NCBI RefSeq assembly: GCF_000003605.2
Contig: NW_003118930.1
Coordinates: 546,024-597,486 of the forward strand
Origin: Saccoglossus kowalevskii
Taxonomy: Eukaryota > Hemichordata > Enteropneusta > Harrimaniidae
DNA length: 51,463 nt
Reading direction: 5' to 3'
The notes beneath the pieces were generated by a model. The model had not been told where the DNA came from. It saw nothing but the letters and a program-made list of their open reading frames with translations, and made no database searches. Shown one piece after another: positions 461 to 51,462 of the stretch. How positions within the stretch are numbered: position 1 is the first letter of the stretch; the number at the start of each line of letters is the position of its first letter. The position numbers and the translations under genes are program-made.

Positions 461-3400
461 GTAAATGCCAGATTTGTTTCACGAATGAGCAATATTACAA
501 TATTGGTGCAGTGTTTATTGTGTCTATTTTGCATCAAGAAGGTTGAGGTTTTGGTCACTCCACCAACTGCTCATTCACATCCTCTATCGACTACCAAATT
601 AGTGTAGCTTCCCATCGAATGAGGGAAATGAAAAATGTGATCCATGAAATGAGTAAATAAATAATTGAATGTATGATTGATTGATTGATTGAATGAATAA
701 TTGATTGAATGAATGAATTTGTCCACGTTGTAGAATGACAAATTTATAGTTAATTGTTTGTTTTTTAACACTAACTGCCATTTACTGTAAATAACTTTAT
801 TTCCACTTAGAATTTATTTTCGCTGAAGGGCTGATTCAGTGAAAATAAAATCCAGCGAATATACCTTTTTTCCTATATTTCACATTCAACTCATCAAAAA
901 TCAAAAATCAGTGAAAATAAATTCCATACAAAAAATCCCAAAAGCCTTTTCAGTGAAAATTAATTCCAGGAAAAATAAAGTAGTTTACAGTACTGTGTCA
1001 ATCTGACTATTATATTTCAATAAAATTAGAACTGCTCAATAAAATGTATAGGGCTCTGGGTTAATCAACAATCTTGATTAGCTTAGGATTGAAATCTATG
1101 GATAGTATTAACGTAATTTGCTAACTTTCTGATATCTCAATAACCACATATAAGATTTAAATGAAACTTAGTACATAGGTTGTCTGGGATACTACACATG
1201 CTTGATTAGTATAGGGCTGACATTTATGCATACTAATTACTTGATTTGCATAAATCAGCATCAACATCTCCAGAATGAAACTTGGTACATAGGTGCTCTG
1301 GGTCAAACCACAATCTGCAAACTATTGATGTACAATCCAATTTATTCCTTTAACTTTAAATTAATATTTCTATTTTTGTTTGTATCACAAACGTCTTGTT
1401 TAATTCACTAATCTTACATATTTAATTAATTTTTCAATATGTTCTATTTCTTTTTCAAATGCCACTAACACTCTCAGCATTCAAGAGTTCATTATAATTG
1501 TGTTTTGGTTTTCAGGATCCCTCCATTGATAGCAGCAGTAAGGAAGGTGACAGACCCAAAATAGAAGGAAACGTTCAATTGGAGGATGTGGAGTTTCAAT
1601 ATCCATCAAGACCAGATATTCAGGTGCATTGAAACATCGACTTATATAATAGAATCCCCAAGTATGAATTTTGAACTATATGGGTTTCTATAGTGTCACA
1701 GAATGTTTGTAGGCCATATTCATTATGCGGTTTGGCCATTTTATTTATACTTAGTGTTAGGTACAGGTCTGGTGGTTTCACAAACAAATTATGACCATTA
1801 TGACTTAGCTGCTGTCAAATGTGACATTTTTGTTCAGTGCTACAAAATATTTGAATTTCCTCACATGATATTATAGTGGTTCACAGCATTTACTCCACTG
1901 TATGTGCAATTGAAACATATTACTGATTATCTGTCTTCAGTAGTCATCTGTTGTTACATTTGTGACCATATAGGAAAGTGTCTCGTAGTTGATTTCCCAT
2001 CAGTTGTTACTTTGGTGGTTGTATAATTTTGTATGGTGCATCTTATGATATACATTTGTATTATTTTCTGTTCTGTTCTAGGTTCTCAAAGGTATTAGTT
2101 TGACCATAGATGTTGGTCAAACGGTGGCATTGGTTGGGTCAAGTGGAAGTGGTAAAAGCACTGCAGTCCAATTAATACAGCGATTCTATGACGTCATGAA
2201 AGGATGTGTAAGTCTTTAATTATTGTTATTATATATTAATTATATTTTTTATGTTGAATTTGACATTAACACATTGATTAGGAATTGAAAATATTATATT
2301 ACAAAACTTCAAATGTACACAATTTTCACTTGAACCATGGTGCCACTGTAATTTCTCAAATCTGTATCATGTAATAATAATATCTAATACTAATGGTCTA
2401 TCTATTATGGCAATAATACAGCTGCACATGTATAACTGCAAATATAGTGGATGTATCTATGATTTTACTCATACGTTATTATGTGAATTTTCAATAATTT
2501 CTTTGAAAATCATGAGCCTAATTTCATGAGCCTTATCTCGCAAATTATGGAAACAATTGTGTAGATTGATTTGGTATTTAAATGTGAAGGAATAGGTGTT
2601 TGTATTATTCTAATACTGAACTATGCATTATTTGATCAGGTTAAAGTAGATGGAAAGAACATCAAAGATATGAATGTAACCTGGTTGCGTAATCATATTG
2701 GTGTTGTTAGTCAAGAACCTGTTCTCTTTGGAACCACAATTGCTGAAAACATTCGATATGGCCGAGAAGATGTAACTATGGAAGAAATTGAGAGAGCCTG
2801 TCAAGAAGCAAATGCATATGAGTTCATATGTAAATTACCTGATGTGAGGTTTACTATGTTATGTCAATGGCTTCAAATTATTACAAAAACTTCGCTATTC
2901 ACTTTCACAAGACTTATACTGTATGGAACTCTGTACATGTAGGATACACGATAACCAATTCTTATTTTCATTCACAGCGTTATGACACACTTGTTGGTGA
3001 AAGAGGAGCTGCTTTATCTGGTGGACAAAAACAGAGAATAGCTATTGCTAGGGCATTGGTCAGAGATCCTAAAATATTGTTATTAGATGAAGCGACTTCA
3101 GCACTTGATACAGAAAGTGAAGCAACTGTACAAGTTGCATTGGATAAGGTAATTCTAGCTTTTTTAAGCCAGTACAATATCTTTGTGATTGGCTATAGAT
3201 TATCTACTATACTGTATTATATTTTTGCCATGTGTAAGTGTGCCAATATAAAGGCAGCCACTTTAGGGATTGGTCATAGAATGTATATTATACTATATCA
3301 TGGAATTTTACTTTGTCTCTCACAGCAGACCAGTCTAAGAGAATCACTTTTGGAATAGGCAATAGAGTGTCTATTATACAACATAGTAAAATATTTTACC

Positions 3401-6400
3401 ACACTATATCAGTGTATAGAAAGCCACCTTGGCGATTGGCCACAGATTGATTACAATAAATACAGCAGTATGCATTATAATCTCATCATAGACCAGTGTA
3501 CAAAAAATCACATTGGCGATTGACCATGGAATGTCTAGCATAGAGCATCAAGCATTATATTTTTGCCATAGACCATTGTATGGAGAGCCTCCTTCATAAT
3601 TGGCCATAGAATATCTACCATACTTCATCATGTATTATATTTTCACTAAACGCTCGTGTAAGGAGAATTATTTTGGTGATTGTTCATGGGTTGTCTCTCA
3701 CCATAGGCCAGTGTAGGAAGAACTACTTTGGTGATTGCCCATAGATTGTCTACTATACGTAATGCTGACAAGATCTGTGCAATGCAAGATGGTATTATAG
3801 TGGAGGAAGGTACACACGATGAACTGATGGCAAAGCAGGGACTGTATTATGAGCTTGTTATGATGCAATCTAAAAAGAAAGATAATGAAGAAAATGTCAT
3901 TGATGATGGTAAGTTTCAATCACATAATTCCTAGATGCTAATATGGTTAATAGAACTCACATTACCAATGTTTACAATCTAGTCTTGTCTGTATATCCAG
4001 TCAATTTATCTCTCATATGAATCCGCATAAATACATGTCGAAAGTCCAGGTTTCTTTCAGCCCGGATACTGCCCCCTACACTACCTCCAAGCTCTTTAGA
4101 TACATTCTCTTACGACTGTATTAAAAATGTACAAATTGTCTTTGTGAACAGTTTTAAAGTTTGGATTTGTTTTTCCTATGTAAACCAAAATTTGTTATTA
4201 GCACTAATTAAGACAATGAGTGTTATATCACACAATACACTAATGTACTTTATTTTTTACTAAAACGTTTTGCACCTTTGAGTGATATTGTTAAATCGTG
4301 GTTCAGAAAGTATATGCAGATGAACCACAGAATAGCTATGGACTGGGTATCAATATGATAATGCTGCTATGTGACTAATAGAATTTTATATGTATCAAGG
4401 ATAATAATGAAGCTCATATCTGTCTTTATAGTTCTTCATTATTGCCTCATCTTCATATCATTTTAGTTCATACATATATTGGTACCATCAGCCATACTTT
4501 GCATTTCATACACCCAGGATATAAAATCTAGCCACAGCAACATGGTAAGTCAATCATTTTTTCATCTCGTAAGTAAGTCATTGATGGTCAAACTAAGCCT
4601 AAATCATGGACTTTTAATTTAACCTATGTGCGTGTCTGTCTGCACCTTTATCTCAGACGTGTCTGGATGAATAACATTCTAACCTCATGCATCTTGAGAT
4701 TGATACTTTCATTTGTGTCATGATCTGATTCAAGGTGTTCACCATTTCAGTGCAATAGATTCATCAAAAGCAAGCATTACTGTCTGACTGCAGTCGTGTT
4801 TTGGACATGGGACATTGACGACCATTTTACCATATCTCAGACCTTCCTTGACCGATGAGGTTCAAACTTATATATGCTTCATACATTATGTAAGCTAAAA
4901 ATGCATAGAAATCGGGCTTTCCTGCCAATCAATAAGCTGATTCGAAATGGCTGGCTGGTTCAGCTTGATTTACTTTTCCGACAGGGACTACATCATGTCA
5001 ATGACTTGTTATCAAATTTTCCTTTTCATCTCATTGTTTTGCTCTAAATACAAATACCAATGTTTTTTGACACTTTTCATTCAATACTTCAGTGCATCAA
5101 TGGTTTTACTTAGTAGATTATTTTCACATGTTACTTATTTCATTTATTGTTAACTCAATTAACATGCAACAACGTATTCACATGATACCTAAATTTTATG
5201 TCAGTATTTTATTTTTAAGATAAAGTTGGCACACCCTATTTCACTTGATTCCATACTTGTGTGTTTTTAATCATTAAGGTCTTATGAGTCAATGTCTTTA
5301 ATTATTAAGTATATTTCTTTCTAAGCTATTTTACACGATGCATGTATTCTGAATAAACCACAATGTGGTGAGTGAACAATCAGCATTGCATGGACAAACC
5401 ATCTATCTGTCAGTGTCATCATGATTATGAAAACAATTGTGTCTTATGATAATGTTATGTGATATTGTACTGTCACATCTTAAGTGGTAGCGTGTTGTGT
5501 ATGTTTTGTTGTTGGTATACATGTGTATGTCAAGCAGGTTTAGTGTTATGTATGTTTTGTTATTTTTTGTAACTCCAATGCATGGTTTAGACTTAGATAA
5601 TAAGATAATTAGATAATTTGAGGTTTATTTGTGTTTTTTGACTTATATATTATTGTATTATTCATGTATCAATATGTGCAAATTTCTCAAATGAAATGCA
5701 AGGTTACTGTGGCTTGCAGAAATTTGATTCACTGTTACTCACGTGTGTCGGAATCTGATAGAAAATTATCAAAAAGAAAAGCATCAAACATGCAGACATT
5801 ATTTATGATGTATTTCCTTCAATTCATACCAATTGTATGATGTACACACACACACACATATATATATTGCATTACGAACCAGGAATATTGCATCTCGATG
5901 TTTATATATAGATAAAAAAAACATATCAATAGCATGCACATGATATATGCATTTGATATGTCTTGAAATCCATATATCAATCCATACATTCAAAATAACT
6001 GAAATGCCAATGATTGTCATTCAGATCTTGAAGATGAGGCAATCATTCTAAAGAGTGGCAGTGGCTCGTTCAAACGATCCTTATCTGCCAGGGGATCCGA
6101 CAGAAAACTAAAGAGAGCATTATCATCCGCCTCCAAGAAGTCTGATGCTGAAGCTGATAACGAGGTTGGTTATGTACATTTAACCTCGCCAGTTTGATAG
6201 AACATATTAGATATTTCTTTATCGTTTTTATGAGAAAAAATATCTTTCCTTGAATGTCATAATCGTTTTTGACAAACGATTGAACAAATCATGCAGTTTT
6301 ATTTTGATGAAGTTCATTACTATAGTTTTATGAAGGGCTGCCGTCGTTTATTTGGGGGATTAAGAACAATGATAATTACCTACGGGAAAAAAAAGAGTTT

Positions 6401-9400: not shown

Positions 9401-12400
9401 AATTGTACGTATGTACCACAGCATGAATAAAATTAAACAACATTATGTAAACACCTTGTGATGTTAATACTCACAAATGTACACACCATTTATGACATTT
9501 TAATTTGTGGCTGTTATATTTATATATATATTATTTTAAAGTGAGTTTCTTTGTATTTTCAGGGTATTTGCGCTGATCACATTTGGCGCGATGGCTGTGG
9601 GCCAGGCTAGTTCCTTCGCACCTGATGCAGCAAAGGCAAAAGTTGCTGCCAATCAAATTTTCTTTTTACTGGATAGAGAATCAGAAATTGATACTAGTAG
9701 TACTGAGGGACTAAAGCCAGTAAGTTAATTAATAATAATTTTAAATTGTGAAGTTGCGCCCTCAAGGGATTAATTGTTTCAGTGACTTAAATGAATGACA
9801 CACAGCACCCAAGCACAAAACGGAAATCCAGAAGCTTTTAATAGAACTATTTAATATTTAGATATACAGATATATTGGTTTGATGATCCTATTAAAAATG
9901 GCCAAATGGTGGCCATTTTCATGCTAAAAAGCATAAAATATCAAGCATTTCTGGCATTTATTGATAGATTTCGTTCACACTTGGTACATAAATTAGACAT
10001 TACGGTTTCTGATGCACGTCATTTTATTATTTAGATTGGATTTAAAATGGCTGACTGTCGGCCATTTTGTTTTAATGAATGGGTTTCTAGAGCCATATCT
10101 CTGACATGCTTTGACTGATTATGTTCAAATTTTTAATATTCATTATACATAATGTCATAGATATACAGATATATTGGTTTGACGATCTTATTCAAAGTGG
10201 CCGAATGGTGGCCATTTTTGTGCTAAAAAGATCATCAAGCATTTCTGGCATTTATGGATGGATTTTGTCCAAACTTATAACATATATTAGACATTACAGG
10301 TTCCTGGTGCATCTAATTTTATTGTTCAGATTGGATTCGAAATGGCTGACTGGCGGCCATTTTGTTTTAATGAGTGGGCTTCTAGAGCAATATCTCTGAC
10401 ATGCTTTGACTGAATATGTTCAAATTTTATATATTCATTATACATCATGTTATAGATATATACATGTATTCAAAATGGCTGATTTTGTTTTAATTAATAC
10501 TGTTCCCGAGCAATATATCTCAATATTGACAAGTACTGGCTTGAAGATCAGATACCAAAGTCAATCATTTTAATGTTAAACAATCATCATAATCATATTC
10601 CTGACATGGTTATATTCCAGCTATATTACTATAAACAAAACTATATATCTTAAATTCGATAACTAACGGGGACTGTGCCACTTGGCTTGTTTATTGTACA
10701 GTTTGTACTTTTAATGTAGGATGAAACTAATATGAAAATTTCCTTCTCAAATTCGAGAACTGTCTGCAATACCATTTGAACCTTCTTATATTTTTTTAAT
10801 GAATAACGTATACATTAATTAAATATATATTGATACAATCTCAACTTAAAAACCTGCTTAATAGAGCTGTTTAATATGTCCGGGTAATTTATATTGATAT
10901 TGTTCGCTGTTTCAGGAGAAATGTATTTCGGAATTAGAACTACATGATGTTCGATTCCGGTACCCAACCAGACCAGACGTACCAGTGCTTAGAGGAGTCG
11001 ACCTTAAAGTAAACCCCGGACAACGTGTAGCATTGGTAGGTAGCAGCGGCTGTGGGAAAAGTACAATTGTGCAACTTACAGAAAGATTCTACGACACCAT
11101 TGCTGGCAGTGTGGTAAGTGATTTACCTAGGCCAGACTTTTTTATTCCTTGTTTCTCGAGTTTTTATAAGGCAATTTTTTTGAGGAGGGCGGAACAAAAA
11201 TAAAATTAGGAAATGAAATAAAATGTTATTCCATGTATAACCTTGTTTCTCATCTGCGCGAGACTTCATACTTTGATCATGATACTCCCATGAAAATGCA
11301 ACTTGGATTTGTTATGCGGCGGGCGGTAAAAAAATTAAGATAAAAATAATATTTTTTAGCATTTTTTTGCGCTTACAAGTCGGTGGGTGCGAGAAATTAC
11401 GCTGAAATAAAATTTTATTTTTATTTCATTTTCGGCTCCTGTTCATTCGGCGGGTTCGCGAAACAAATGATAATAAAAGTCTGGCCTTCCTATTTACATT
11501 ATCAAATATAACAGCAAAAATGTGCATACAAATAACAGGCTGTTGATCTATGTTGCAAAAGGATATTAATGGTTATTAGTACGACAACAAGTATTTTCTT
11601 TTTAATTAGTGAGCACATATTTGCAAAAGATCTCTGGCAAATTACTATCTTCATATTTGTCAAGGTTACAAAATAGTTTAACCAAATTTATGTATTATTG
11701 TATACACTAGCCAGTTACTGAAAAATGTGTGTACACAATTTGAGGTAAAAAATCACTAGTTCTGGAGATGAAGATCGTTTCAAAAATCGCTTGTTATTAG
11801 GGTATACTGTACTCATCAATATACACCAGTAGGTTATCTGCATTTTGAACAAAGGAAGGCGGAAATTAATATTAACAAAACCAATAAATCTAAGTATAGC
11901 CTGGCACACTATAACATCATATAATACATCCTCATCAACCAGGAAATAAATATGTATATTTAATACCATCAGCACACTGCCTTTGTTATCTTCAGGTGTG
12001 AGTGCCTAATTCTTCCTATTTAAAACGTAAATCTTTCTGCATATTGTGTAAAAAGTTGTGTGAATTAAAAATGTTAAACTTGACACAAGTACCCACATAA
12101 TAATTGAATGGTTGTATTAACAATCTTTTCCAGGCACTTGATGGTAATGATCTCAAAGATTTAAATATCCAGTCGTTGCGACAACAGTTAGGAATCGTTT
12201 CACAAGAACCAATATTGTTTGACCGTACAATTAAAGATAACATCGCGTATGGTGATAATTCCAGAGAAGTGCCCATGAATGAAATAATACAAGCTGCAAA
12301 AGATGCAAATATACATGGCTTTGTACAATCACTGCCATTGGTCAGTATTATATATTTGCGCTTGCATACATTTTAACAAACAAAATCGCAAACTACATTC

Positions 12401-29947: not shown

Positions 29948-30890
29948 AAACAAGCCATGCATGGCACAGTCCCAGTGCGTTATCAAATTTAAGATATATA
30001 GTTTTGTTTATAGTAAAATAGCTGGAATATAACCATGTCAGGAATACGAAAATGATAATTGTTTAACATTAAAAAGATTGACATTTGTATCTGATTGTAA
30101 AATGAGTATTGAAAGATATTGCTCTGGAACAGCATAAATTAAAACCAAATCAGCCATTTTGAATACATGTATATATCTATAACATGATGTACAACGAATA
30201 TATACAATTTGAACATAATCAGTCAAAGCATGTCAGAGATATTGCTCTAGAAGCCCATAAATTAAAACAAAATGGTCACCAGTCAGCCATTTTGAATCCG
30301 ATCTGAAAAAAATGACGTGCATCAGGAACCCGTTATGTCTAATTTATGTACTAAGTTTGAACAAAGTCCATCCATAAATGCCAGAAATGCTTGATATTTG
30401 ATGATTTTTTTAGACAAAAAATGGCCATCATTCGGCCACTTTGAATAGGATTGTCAAACCAATATATCTGTATATCTATGACATGATGTATAATGAATAT
30501 TACAAAGTTGAGCATAATCAGTCAAAGCAAGTCAGAGATATGGCACGAGAACCACATTCAACAAAACAAAATGGCCGCCAGTCGGCCATTTTGAATCTAA
30601 TCTGAAAAACAAAATTATTTGCATCAAGCTCCCATAATGTGTAACGTATATACCGAATTTGAACAAAATCCATCTGTAAACAGCCGAGAAATGCCTGATT
30701 TTGATGATCTTTTAGCGCAAAATGGCCGCTATTCGGCCATCTTGAATCAGATCGTGACAGAAATTGATGTACATATGTATAATGTCATGTATGATGTATG
30801 TGTGAAGTTTTATTTTGATTCACAGGGCCGGACGCACGCACGAACACACGGAAGACCAAGGGTTAAAACATAAGTCCCCGTTTTCGGACT
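29948..30890 (+). repeat. Dispersed repeat with ~300-bp internal units (second, inverted copy)
   Basis: Opposite orientation to 9861-10692 and highly similar to it. Paired cores such as AAATGGCCGCCAGTCGGCCA occur near 30268, 30420, 30569 and 30719, about 150 bp apart, alternating between two half-unit types so that the true period is about 300 bp. It ends in GGACGCACGCACGAACACAC and AAGTCCCCG, a right end that the intronic copy lacks. No transposase-like ORF. Confidence 0.82.
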
Positions 30891-31090
30891 ACGTCTCATT
30901 ATGCACCCGGTTTGATTAGTATTGACTGATAAATATATACCACGGTTCATGCCCACCTGGTTCATCCCGAAGGCTTCACTCAAATGAAATTGTTGTAGAA
31001 CTGTTTTCAGTTTCAATGTCATTATTTGTCTTAGTTGAGGTCGACTTTTTCATATAAAGCACCTATTTCCCATTCGCTGCACTGGCGATT

Positions 31091-40738: not shown

Positions 40739-40815
40739 ATTATTATTACAATATTGATCAGTAATATTACAATATCGATCAGTATTATTACAATATTGGT
40801 CAGTATTACTACAAT
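40739..40815. repeat. 21-bp minisatellite, locus 1
   Basis: Three to four units of the type ATTGATCAGTATTATTACAA, the same unit as at 43343-43505. Confidence 0.8.
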
Positions 40816-43342: not shown

Positions 43343-43505
43343 ATATTGGTCAATAATATTACATTATTGGTCAGAATTATTACAATATTGATCATTATTA
43401 TTACACTATTGGTCAGAATTATTACAATATTGATTAATATTATTACACTATTGGTCAGTATTATTAGAATATTGATCAGTATCATTACAATATTAATCAT
43501 TATTA
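43343..43505. repeat. 21-bp minisatellite, locus 2
   Basis: About seven 21-bp units alternating ATTGGTCAGAATTATTACAA and ATTGATCATTATTATTACAC types. It abuts the left end of repeat X copy C. Confidence 0.88.
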
Positions 43506-43870
43506 TACATCTGTTACCGTAACGCCATAACTTACAGCGTGTCATAATTTTGTGGTATTTTACGGGGGATTTTTATCCTACCATATTAGGAAATGCGTCC
43601 TCTAATAATAAAACAAATATGGCTGCCATTAGGGCTTGACCGAACTCCACACAAAGAAATTCGCTAATTCTGTTCTAAACATTTTGGATTTCGGCATCCA
43701 TATGTTGCCTCCCTGGAAAGAAAAGATGTATAATAATAAGGTTATTGCGAGGATAGCTCAAAGTATGCACTCAGACATTACACCGGCGCATCGACCTCCG
43801 CTGCGCGTCGGTCGATACTCCCGCTGTGCTGTCTTCGTGCATACTTTGAGGTATCCTCGTAATAAACTCA
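43505..43870 (+). repeat. Repeat family X copy C, uninterrupted, with terminal hairpin
   Basis: It runs from TACATCTGTTACCGTAACGC to a hairpin at about 43740-43866 with arms GCGAGGATAGCTCAAAGTAT and (reverse complement) ACGAGGATACCTCAAAGTAT. The hairpin tip ATCGACC...GGTCGAT is itself palindromic. It lacks the MITE found in copy B, giving an empty-site comparison. Confidence 0.75.
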
Positions 43871-49948: not shown

Positions 49949-51264
49949 GTGAGTATCATGCTGTAGTAGAATCTCGATGTTTCAATTCAGACAACCGCTC
50001 ACGTACACTGTGAAATAAAGGCAATTGTAGATAAGAAAATGTGTTGTATATATTTTTCAAGAAGTGCAATCATGTACACATTTAAATGGTATTTTCAGTA
50101 TACAAACCGCTCATGATTTCGACAAACGAACCGGGTGTATTTATAGAGTTCGCTAATGAAGTCTCGGGGCTGTTACCCATATGAAGGCCAATCACCCTGA
50201 TTGTAAACGTCTACAACACAGCGTCTCTTATCAACACGTATCAAATATAACATTTCAGATAAATATTTGTCATTGTAATTTGTGAAAAAATAGGGATACC
50301 ATTTGTAAATTTCTAAAATTGCTGTTGGCCCGTAATCTGCACATGGTCAATTTCTTAAAATCAGTTTAATTTGTTGTTTTTTTCTTTGAAGCAAACGTGT
50401 GTAAATGCTATATACATACAGACAATTGCACTGGTGAAATGGATACGTTGAAAATGAAAATTTTACGCCACTACATTTTTAAGTGACTGGATTACTTGAA
50501 AAAATAAATAAATTCATAGAGAAAGCTTAAATGGAGCGAACTAATCAACAATAATTGCATGAGATAAGTATGACCTGAATCGAGCGACGACAGATAATAC
50601 CACATACTGCTTGTCGTATTGACTTCTAGAGTAGGCAATTATTTAATGATAGATGCGATATATTCAACGTTATTCACTTTAATTTATTACGTCATAGTTA
50701 ATATTTCAAACGTAATTAGCGTTTCGACTTATTTTTACATTCGCAAAATATAGACATATATTCGATAGAACCATATTCTTATGCTATGTCTACCTCCACA
50801 TAATATTAACAGTCATAGATCCTACAATAGATTGCAGGGTCTATGATCCATACATACCCCCATAACGCAATATCCCTATGTGACTAAACTCTGCTATAGG
50901 AGTTTGATCTATCAATTCAACAACTCTGTGAATAATGGCGACACTACTCACATTTGATTACATTTTTGTTATGGGTTTCCTCTCGACTTTCGATACGAAT
51001 TGATTCCAGGGTTTGCAGTATGAATGAGTCTTTACAAGAAAAGTTCGGAATGTGAATATTACAATAGTTATACTATTTCGAACGGGCAATCTTGAATTTA
51101 GAGGCAAACACAAGCTATAATACAACACAGAAAAAACGAAAAATACCAAAATACAAAACAATAAACTTCAACACATGATCATTGCGATACGACTTTGTCG
51201 AGCCCCTTCATATCTGACGTTTACCTCTTTGTTTATAAAGTATGCGTTTTTGTTGTTGTTCAGC
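49949..51264. other. Spacer, nothing recognised
   Basis: AT-rich, with a small hairpin (CATAGATCCT paired with AGGGTCTATG) near 50813-50845. No gene recognised. Confidence 0.4.
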
Positions 51265-51462
51265 GACATACAATTAGATTACATAAATGCAGTCAATGAC
51301 ATACAATTATATTACATAAATACAGTAAGTGACATACAATTAGATTACATAAATATAGTCAGTGACACACAATTAGATTACATAAATACAGTCAGTGACA
51401 TACAATTAGAATACATAAATACAGTCAGCGACATACAATTAGATTACATACATACAGTCATG
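51265..51462. repeat. 33-bp tandem repeat array, continues past window
   Basis: Six units starting at 51265, 51298, 51331, 51364, 51397 and 51430, each of the type GACATACAATTAGATTACAT followed by AAATACAGTCAGT. Units differ at only a few positions. The array is cut by the window edge. Confidence 0.93.

Follow-up and report, generated by a model that had tools for sequence, protein, structure and literature searches.

Why is an intron of a transporter gene filled almost from end to end with imperfect copies of the beginning of the exon that follows it? The question is raised by the 558-bp intron at 3149..3706 on the + strand of the window, by which we mean the whole 51,463-nt stretch of DNA that was analyzed. 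The intron separates the Walker B exon of the first NBD (NBD1) of an ABCB gene from the H-loop exon of the same domain, and the array of copies takes up nearly all of it.

The host gene and the layout of the array

The + strand of the window encodes much of an ABCB full transporter within its first 14.2 kb. The Walker A, Q-loop, signature, Walker B and H-loop motifs are present in two ordered sets, giving the two ABCB1-like NBDs with Walker A, signature, Walker B and H-loop that mark an ABCB full transporter. Spliced NBD1 matched ABCB1 chains over residues 2-260 of 270, and the Pfam domains ABC_tran and ABC_membrane were detected in the gene. The host is a P-glycoprotein-like ABCB gene of the drug-pump type. 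Rfam at gathering scores returned 0 matches. As a separate observation, the fourth match in the search for the Q-loop was L015.

The exon with the signature and Walker B of NBD1 (2978..3148, +), whose start at 2978 was placed by eye, ends with ...LDK in phase 0 at the donor AAG/GTAATT (the slash marks the junction). The H-loop exon of NBD1 (3707..3908, +) follows the acceptor CTCTCACCATAG/GCC and ends at the donor GATG/GTAAGT. The two exons join in phase 0, and the true H-loop exon has retained both its splice sites and its frame. Between them lie six units of ~80-86 bp and one shortened unit, all of which resemble the start of the H-loop exon. The resemblance covers the first 51-57 bp of the exon in the full units and somewhat less in unit 7. 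The exon-like parts, all on the + strand, are found at 3169..3216 (unit 1), 3242..3293 (unit 2), 3329..3379 (unit 3), 3409..3460 (unit 4), 3492..3542 (unit 5), 3572..3628 (unit 6) and 3652..3697 (unit 7, the short one). The spacing from core to core is 81, 86, 80, 84, 80 and 80 bp, and then 55 bp from unit 7 to the exon's own core. The last unit is thus shortened and adjoins the exon, as the sequence-only reading, an earlier note on this DNA, had described.

The units differ in what they have kept. Unit 1 has the AG at its junction (TTTTTTAAG/CC), a 7-8-bp gap relative to the exon and, with GYRLSTI, the core that matches that of the exon best (26/30). Unit 3 also has the AG (CTCTCACAGCAG/ACC) and shows a one-base gap against the exon. 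The AG is present in unit 6 as well, which is open for 25 codons with the core GHRISTI. Units 2, 4 and 7 lack the AG at the junction; unit 4 has the core GHRLITI, and unit 7 is ~25-30 bp shorter than the others. That several units can still be read as protein, as had been noticed, is borne out by the cores of units 1, 4 and 6. The unit from 3492 (unit 5), which had been singled out for keeping an AG and an open frame across the H-loop segment, does have the AG and 35 open codons, but it reads DHGMSSI. Identity is 59-69% between units and exon and 49-70% among units. Tandem Repeats Finder at its threshold did not report the array in the intron 3149-3706, because the units are too diverged.

The likeness of the intron to the exon start was measured against shuffled and control sequence. 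Alignment of the exon start (3707-3764) with the intron (3149-3642) gave six separate matches with scores of 42-52, and the top score among 1000 dinucleotide-shuffled introns was 34, below those of all six full units. Six matches with scores of at least 30 were found in the real intron, compared to a mean of 0.01 and a maximum of 1 in 200 shuffles. As controls, 182 stretches from position 4500 onward were taken on both strands, and the top score of these 364 segments was 36, in the two containing the NBD2 H-loop exon. The periodicity of the intron 3149-3706 was above that of all 1000 shuffles. When the flanks of the 18 mapped exons were scanned with 100 shuffles each, with approximate boundaries for the 12 exons that follow 3908, such an array was seen at 1 of 36 flanks, namely ahead of the H-loop exon (z 12.2). 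The degenerate ~80-bp units resembling the exon start are therefore real, and the array scores above shuffled sequence, the kind of comparison that the sequence-only reading had named as a test of its claim.

The source of the copies and the relations among the units

The core of the exon part reads VIAHRLSTI, which is the H-loop segment of ABC proteins. Since this core is also present in NBD2 and in ABCB1 chains, the H-loop exon, with its first ~51-57 bp, is the source of the units and not their product. Units 1-6 have more bases in common that differ from the exon than expected, with 58 pairs, whereas 5000 permutations under the null gave 29.3 on average and at most 54. The clearest of these shared changes, each in 5 of the 6 units, are C to G in the Ala codon ahead of the histidine and T to C at position 17. 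Because these changes are common to units 1-6 and absent from the exon, the six units were amplified from one already changed copy and not repeatedly from the exon. The origin of the core and these derived changes bear out the earlier suggestion of a minisatellite seeded by coding DNA. The word "expanding", which had been part of that suggestion, is not supported for copies that are 30-50% diverged and go unreported by Tandem Repeats Finder.

Unit 7 stands apart in its exon part. A site in the exon part was considered diagnostic if at least 3 of units 1-6 share a base other than that of the exon, and unit 7 has the exon base at 6 of 8 such sites (0, 10, 15, 17, 20 and 39, but not 11 or 31). 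Its clustering with the exon is weak (bootstrap 61), as bootstraps in the unit tree are low throughout (22-61), and in the tail it agrees with the exon at only 3 of 9 diagnostic positions.

These tails are the ~25 bp that the units carry on the intron side of the exon part. The AG at the junction is retained in four of the seven units (1, 3, 5 and 6), exact stretches of 16 nt and 13 nt are common to unit tails, and TTGTCTCTCAC is common to unit 3 and the true acceptor. A joint alignment of all tails was better than that of each of 500 shuffled-tail sets. The exon's own 25-nt tail beat shuffles when compared with units 3, 5, 6 and 7, but not with units 1, 2 and 4. Its mean score against the unit tails was 8.6, hardly above the 7.5 reached by five further acceptors from the gene. 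The sequence-only reading had likened the units to the acceptor plus the first ~60 bp of the exon. The exon part of that statement stands at about 51-57 bp, but the likeness to the acceptor is weaker. The descent of the tails from the present acceptor, with the acceptor inside the piece that was copied, is only partly shown by these comparisons.

Regulation, coding and outside origins as rival readings

Could the array be maintained because it acts on splicing, as a set of decoy acceptors or of repeated splicing-control elements ahead of a catalytic exon? We consider this very improbable. Between units 1-6 the exon-derived 30-bp core is conserved at 72% by column compared to 47% for the tail (permutation p 0.001), which together with the AG kept in four units speaks for a regulatory array. 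However, the contrast between the core and the 5′ exon part, where the core is only somewhat more conserved, is weak (p 0.085), the junction AG is missing from three of the seven units, and nothing comparable lies ahead of the NBD2 H-loop exons of the host gene and the paralogue, whose introns are at other places. The better-conserved core does not fit uniform neutral decay. Its possible causes are core-centred exchange before the array froze, an alignment anchored on the core, or weak constraint. A more specific proposal, that the array is maintained as a bank of decoys for the 3′ splice site, with a conserved core of 30 bp, and tunes the frequency at which the NBD1 H-loop exon is joined, strikes us as very improbable; if it were true, a transporter with one crippled ATPase site would be made under some conditions.

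It is likewise very unlikely that the units are alternative H-loop exons, mutually exclusive or cassette, either still in use or as remains. Former alternative exons had been offered in the sequence-only reading. Units 5 and 6, with an AG and 35 and 25 open codons, and the surviving cores GHRISTI and GYRLSTI speak for such exons. In the core alone (ten codons only), identity among units by codon position is 0.77, 0.75 and then 0.63 at position 3, and this lower identity is in the direction expected from coding constraint. Over the whole exon part, the corresponding values are 0.66, 0.65 and 0.70. Differences between units and exon are about equal across codon positions (28/113, 33/115 and 31/115), with no excess at the third, and units 1 and 3 have gaps that break the frame relative to the exon. 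In every unit, the match is limited to roughly the first quarter of the exon (~51-57 of 202 bp). The intron contains 37 AG starts, and from none of them does an open frame reach 3707 in the frame of the exon. At least 15 codons are open after 21 of them, and the three that extend past 3707 are all out of frame. Clusters of mutually exclusive exons are recognized by full-length exon copies with both splice sites and by a reading frame kept under selection. Neither was found among the units, although the core-only figures lean the opposite way with respect to the frame. The suggestion of former alternative exons is therefore not sustained: judged from their sequence, the units look like dead coding DNA with little sign that they still code. 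A separate observation is that the Walker B exon can be read through its donor over 3149-3358, with 69 open codons in frame with GYRLSTI of unit 1. Since 158 of 10108 starts sampled from 14500 on (~1.6%) are equally open, no weight was placed on this read-through.

It is highly unlikely that the intron took up a dispersed repeat, or a piece of some other ABC gene, which was then amplified there. The bases common to units 1-6 do differ from the present exon, which speaks for this reading, but the nearest coding match found is the neighbouring exon (42-52), and the NBD2 exon scores 36. Against the rest of the window, the units gave no match above the top one from 20 shuffled queries. The host's own genome (572 Mb, 4830 contigs), searched at the DNA level with 3160-3910 as query at E 0.001, returned only the locus itself, in a search that can miss diverged repeat copies. 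These searches agree with the sequence-only reading, which took the units to be local and not part of a dispersed repeat. A protein search of the genome with the H-loop exon found five places. Besides the locus itself, these are the NBD2 exons of the host gene and of an ABCB paralogue, and two exons that are more distant, which we take to be those of half-transporters. No array or upstream likeness was seen ahead of the other four, which are a weak control because none has an intron at the same codon in the printed context.

The paralogue (L004, contig C1168:490203-493364) is located on the opposite strand, ~54 kb ahead of the window. Its NBD2 H-loop exon is without an array and has its intron at another codon, and its NBD1 is expected inside a stretch of N. 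The stretches fetched between the paralogue and the window read N from 494751 to 533299 and at 536100-546023.

Other local repeats occur in the window, none of them at mapped exon edges. The sequences at 9841-10480 and 30100-30900 form an inverted pair with 84% identity. Each is a copy of a ~600-bp block composed of units of ~295-300 bp. A short piece of this block at 4830-4891 points to a dispersed repeat family. Separate arrays at 40741-40815 and 43343-43506 have a similar 21-bp unit and are about 84-87% alike, and a 33-bp minisatellite of about six copies with 90% matches is found at the window's end (51260-51460). In an upstream ABCB intron, diverged ~114-128-bp repeats at 1050-1323 have no contact with a mapped exon.

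Chance resemblance in an AT-rich intron, to which the low identity and the silence of Tandem Repeats Finder might point, was rejected as practically inconceivable by the shuffle tests of score and periodicity, since 0 of 1000 shuffles reached the weakest of the six matches (maximum 34 versus 42) and 0 of 1000 the observed periodicity.

Proposed origin and known counterparts

Tandem duplications across intron/exon boundaries have been named mirages in the lancelet genes BflGb6, BflGb9 and Adh3 (PMC3087553). The array in the ABCB intron, whose tandem units likewise contain the edge of the adjacent exon, is very probably a decayed (fossil) minisatellite of this type. We propose that a segment with the start of the H-loop exon, probably together with the end of the preceding intron, was duplicated in tandem. 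The acceptor adjoining the complete exon would have stayed in use, so that the upstream copy turned into intron sequence open to mutation. This copy may have acquired changes such as GCC to GGC ahead of the H-loop histidine, and slippage or unequal exchange could then have turned it into six units, the origin from a single copy resting on the shared derived sites. Unit 7, next to the exon, would have remained nearer to it in the exon part and lost ~25-30 bp, for which a deletion between short repeats would suffice. Afterwards all units presumably decayed like ordinary intron, and the net effect would be an intron ~0.5 kb longer.

No present function of the array is inferred from its sequence, and the divergence of the units in this one assembly suggests that its length is no longer unstable. 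The array may show the late appearance of a boundary-spanning minisatellite long after its movement ended, that is, an intron made of worn exon starts. As such it supports the idea of intron growth through near-neutral duplication at a 3′ splice site. It also calls for caution, as gene finders could take the exon-like peptides of such introns for alternative exons. In a host other than a lancelet, the phenomenon would reach beyond the lancelet cases found in print.

The sequence-only reading knew of no such array in ABCB genes. Literature searches aimed at ABC genes listed no example, ABCB or other, but the kind of structure is already in print as the lancelet mirages, of which the decayed ABCB case is a further member. 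The 6-16/IFI6 gene reportedly also has a tandem repeat unit that contains a splice site, on the donor and not the acceptor side, and the title of that report is said to speak of sites provided for splicing.

The closest counterpart is BflGb6, described as having a minisatellite-like tandem array in which the 3′ end of an intron is copied together with the 5′ part of the next exon, with 6 and 3 units in two haplotypes and a boundary unit apart from the homogenized ones (PMC3087553). Since this arrangement of tandem boundary copies, with the boundary unit set apart, is the same as here, the ABCB array was filed as a decayed mirage. The two differ in that the BflGb6 units are 150-160 bp long, 81-100% identical and occur in length alleles, whereas the ABCB units are 80-86 bp long and 49-70% identical, and their intron side is less sure. 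According to the same report, length is unstable in both BflGb6 and Adh3, mirages seem not to interfere with regular splicing, as RT-PCR suggests for BflGb6, and a model of intron gain was built on them (PMC3087553). Mirages are also described in lancelet PGBD5, Adh and TnC, where the tandem copies contain splice sites and reportedly leave the mRNA undisturbed (PMC3902484). High identity was not taken to define a mirage because the PGBD5 copies are called imperfect (PMC3902484), like the ABCB units. The unit lengths are unlike those of the ABCB array, being 60 and 108 bp in PGBD5 (PMC3902484) and 10-72 bp in Adh3 (quoted in PMC3087553). A looser parallel is the earthworm metallothionein gene, with intronic minisatellites and duplications of exon 4 that are missing from the transcript (PMC12783039). 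Human tandem repeats at exon-intron boundaries, which may form new introns, are alike in that repeat variation at the boundary alters the extent of the intron; they are recent, lie in segmental duplications and are in some cases polymorphic (PMC2812944), whereas the ABCB array is old and decayed.
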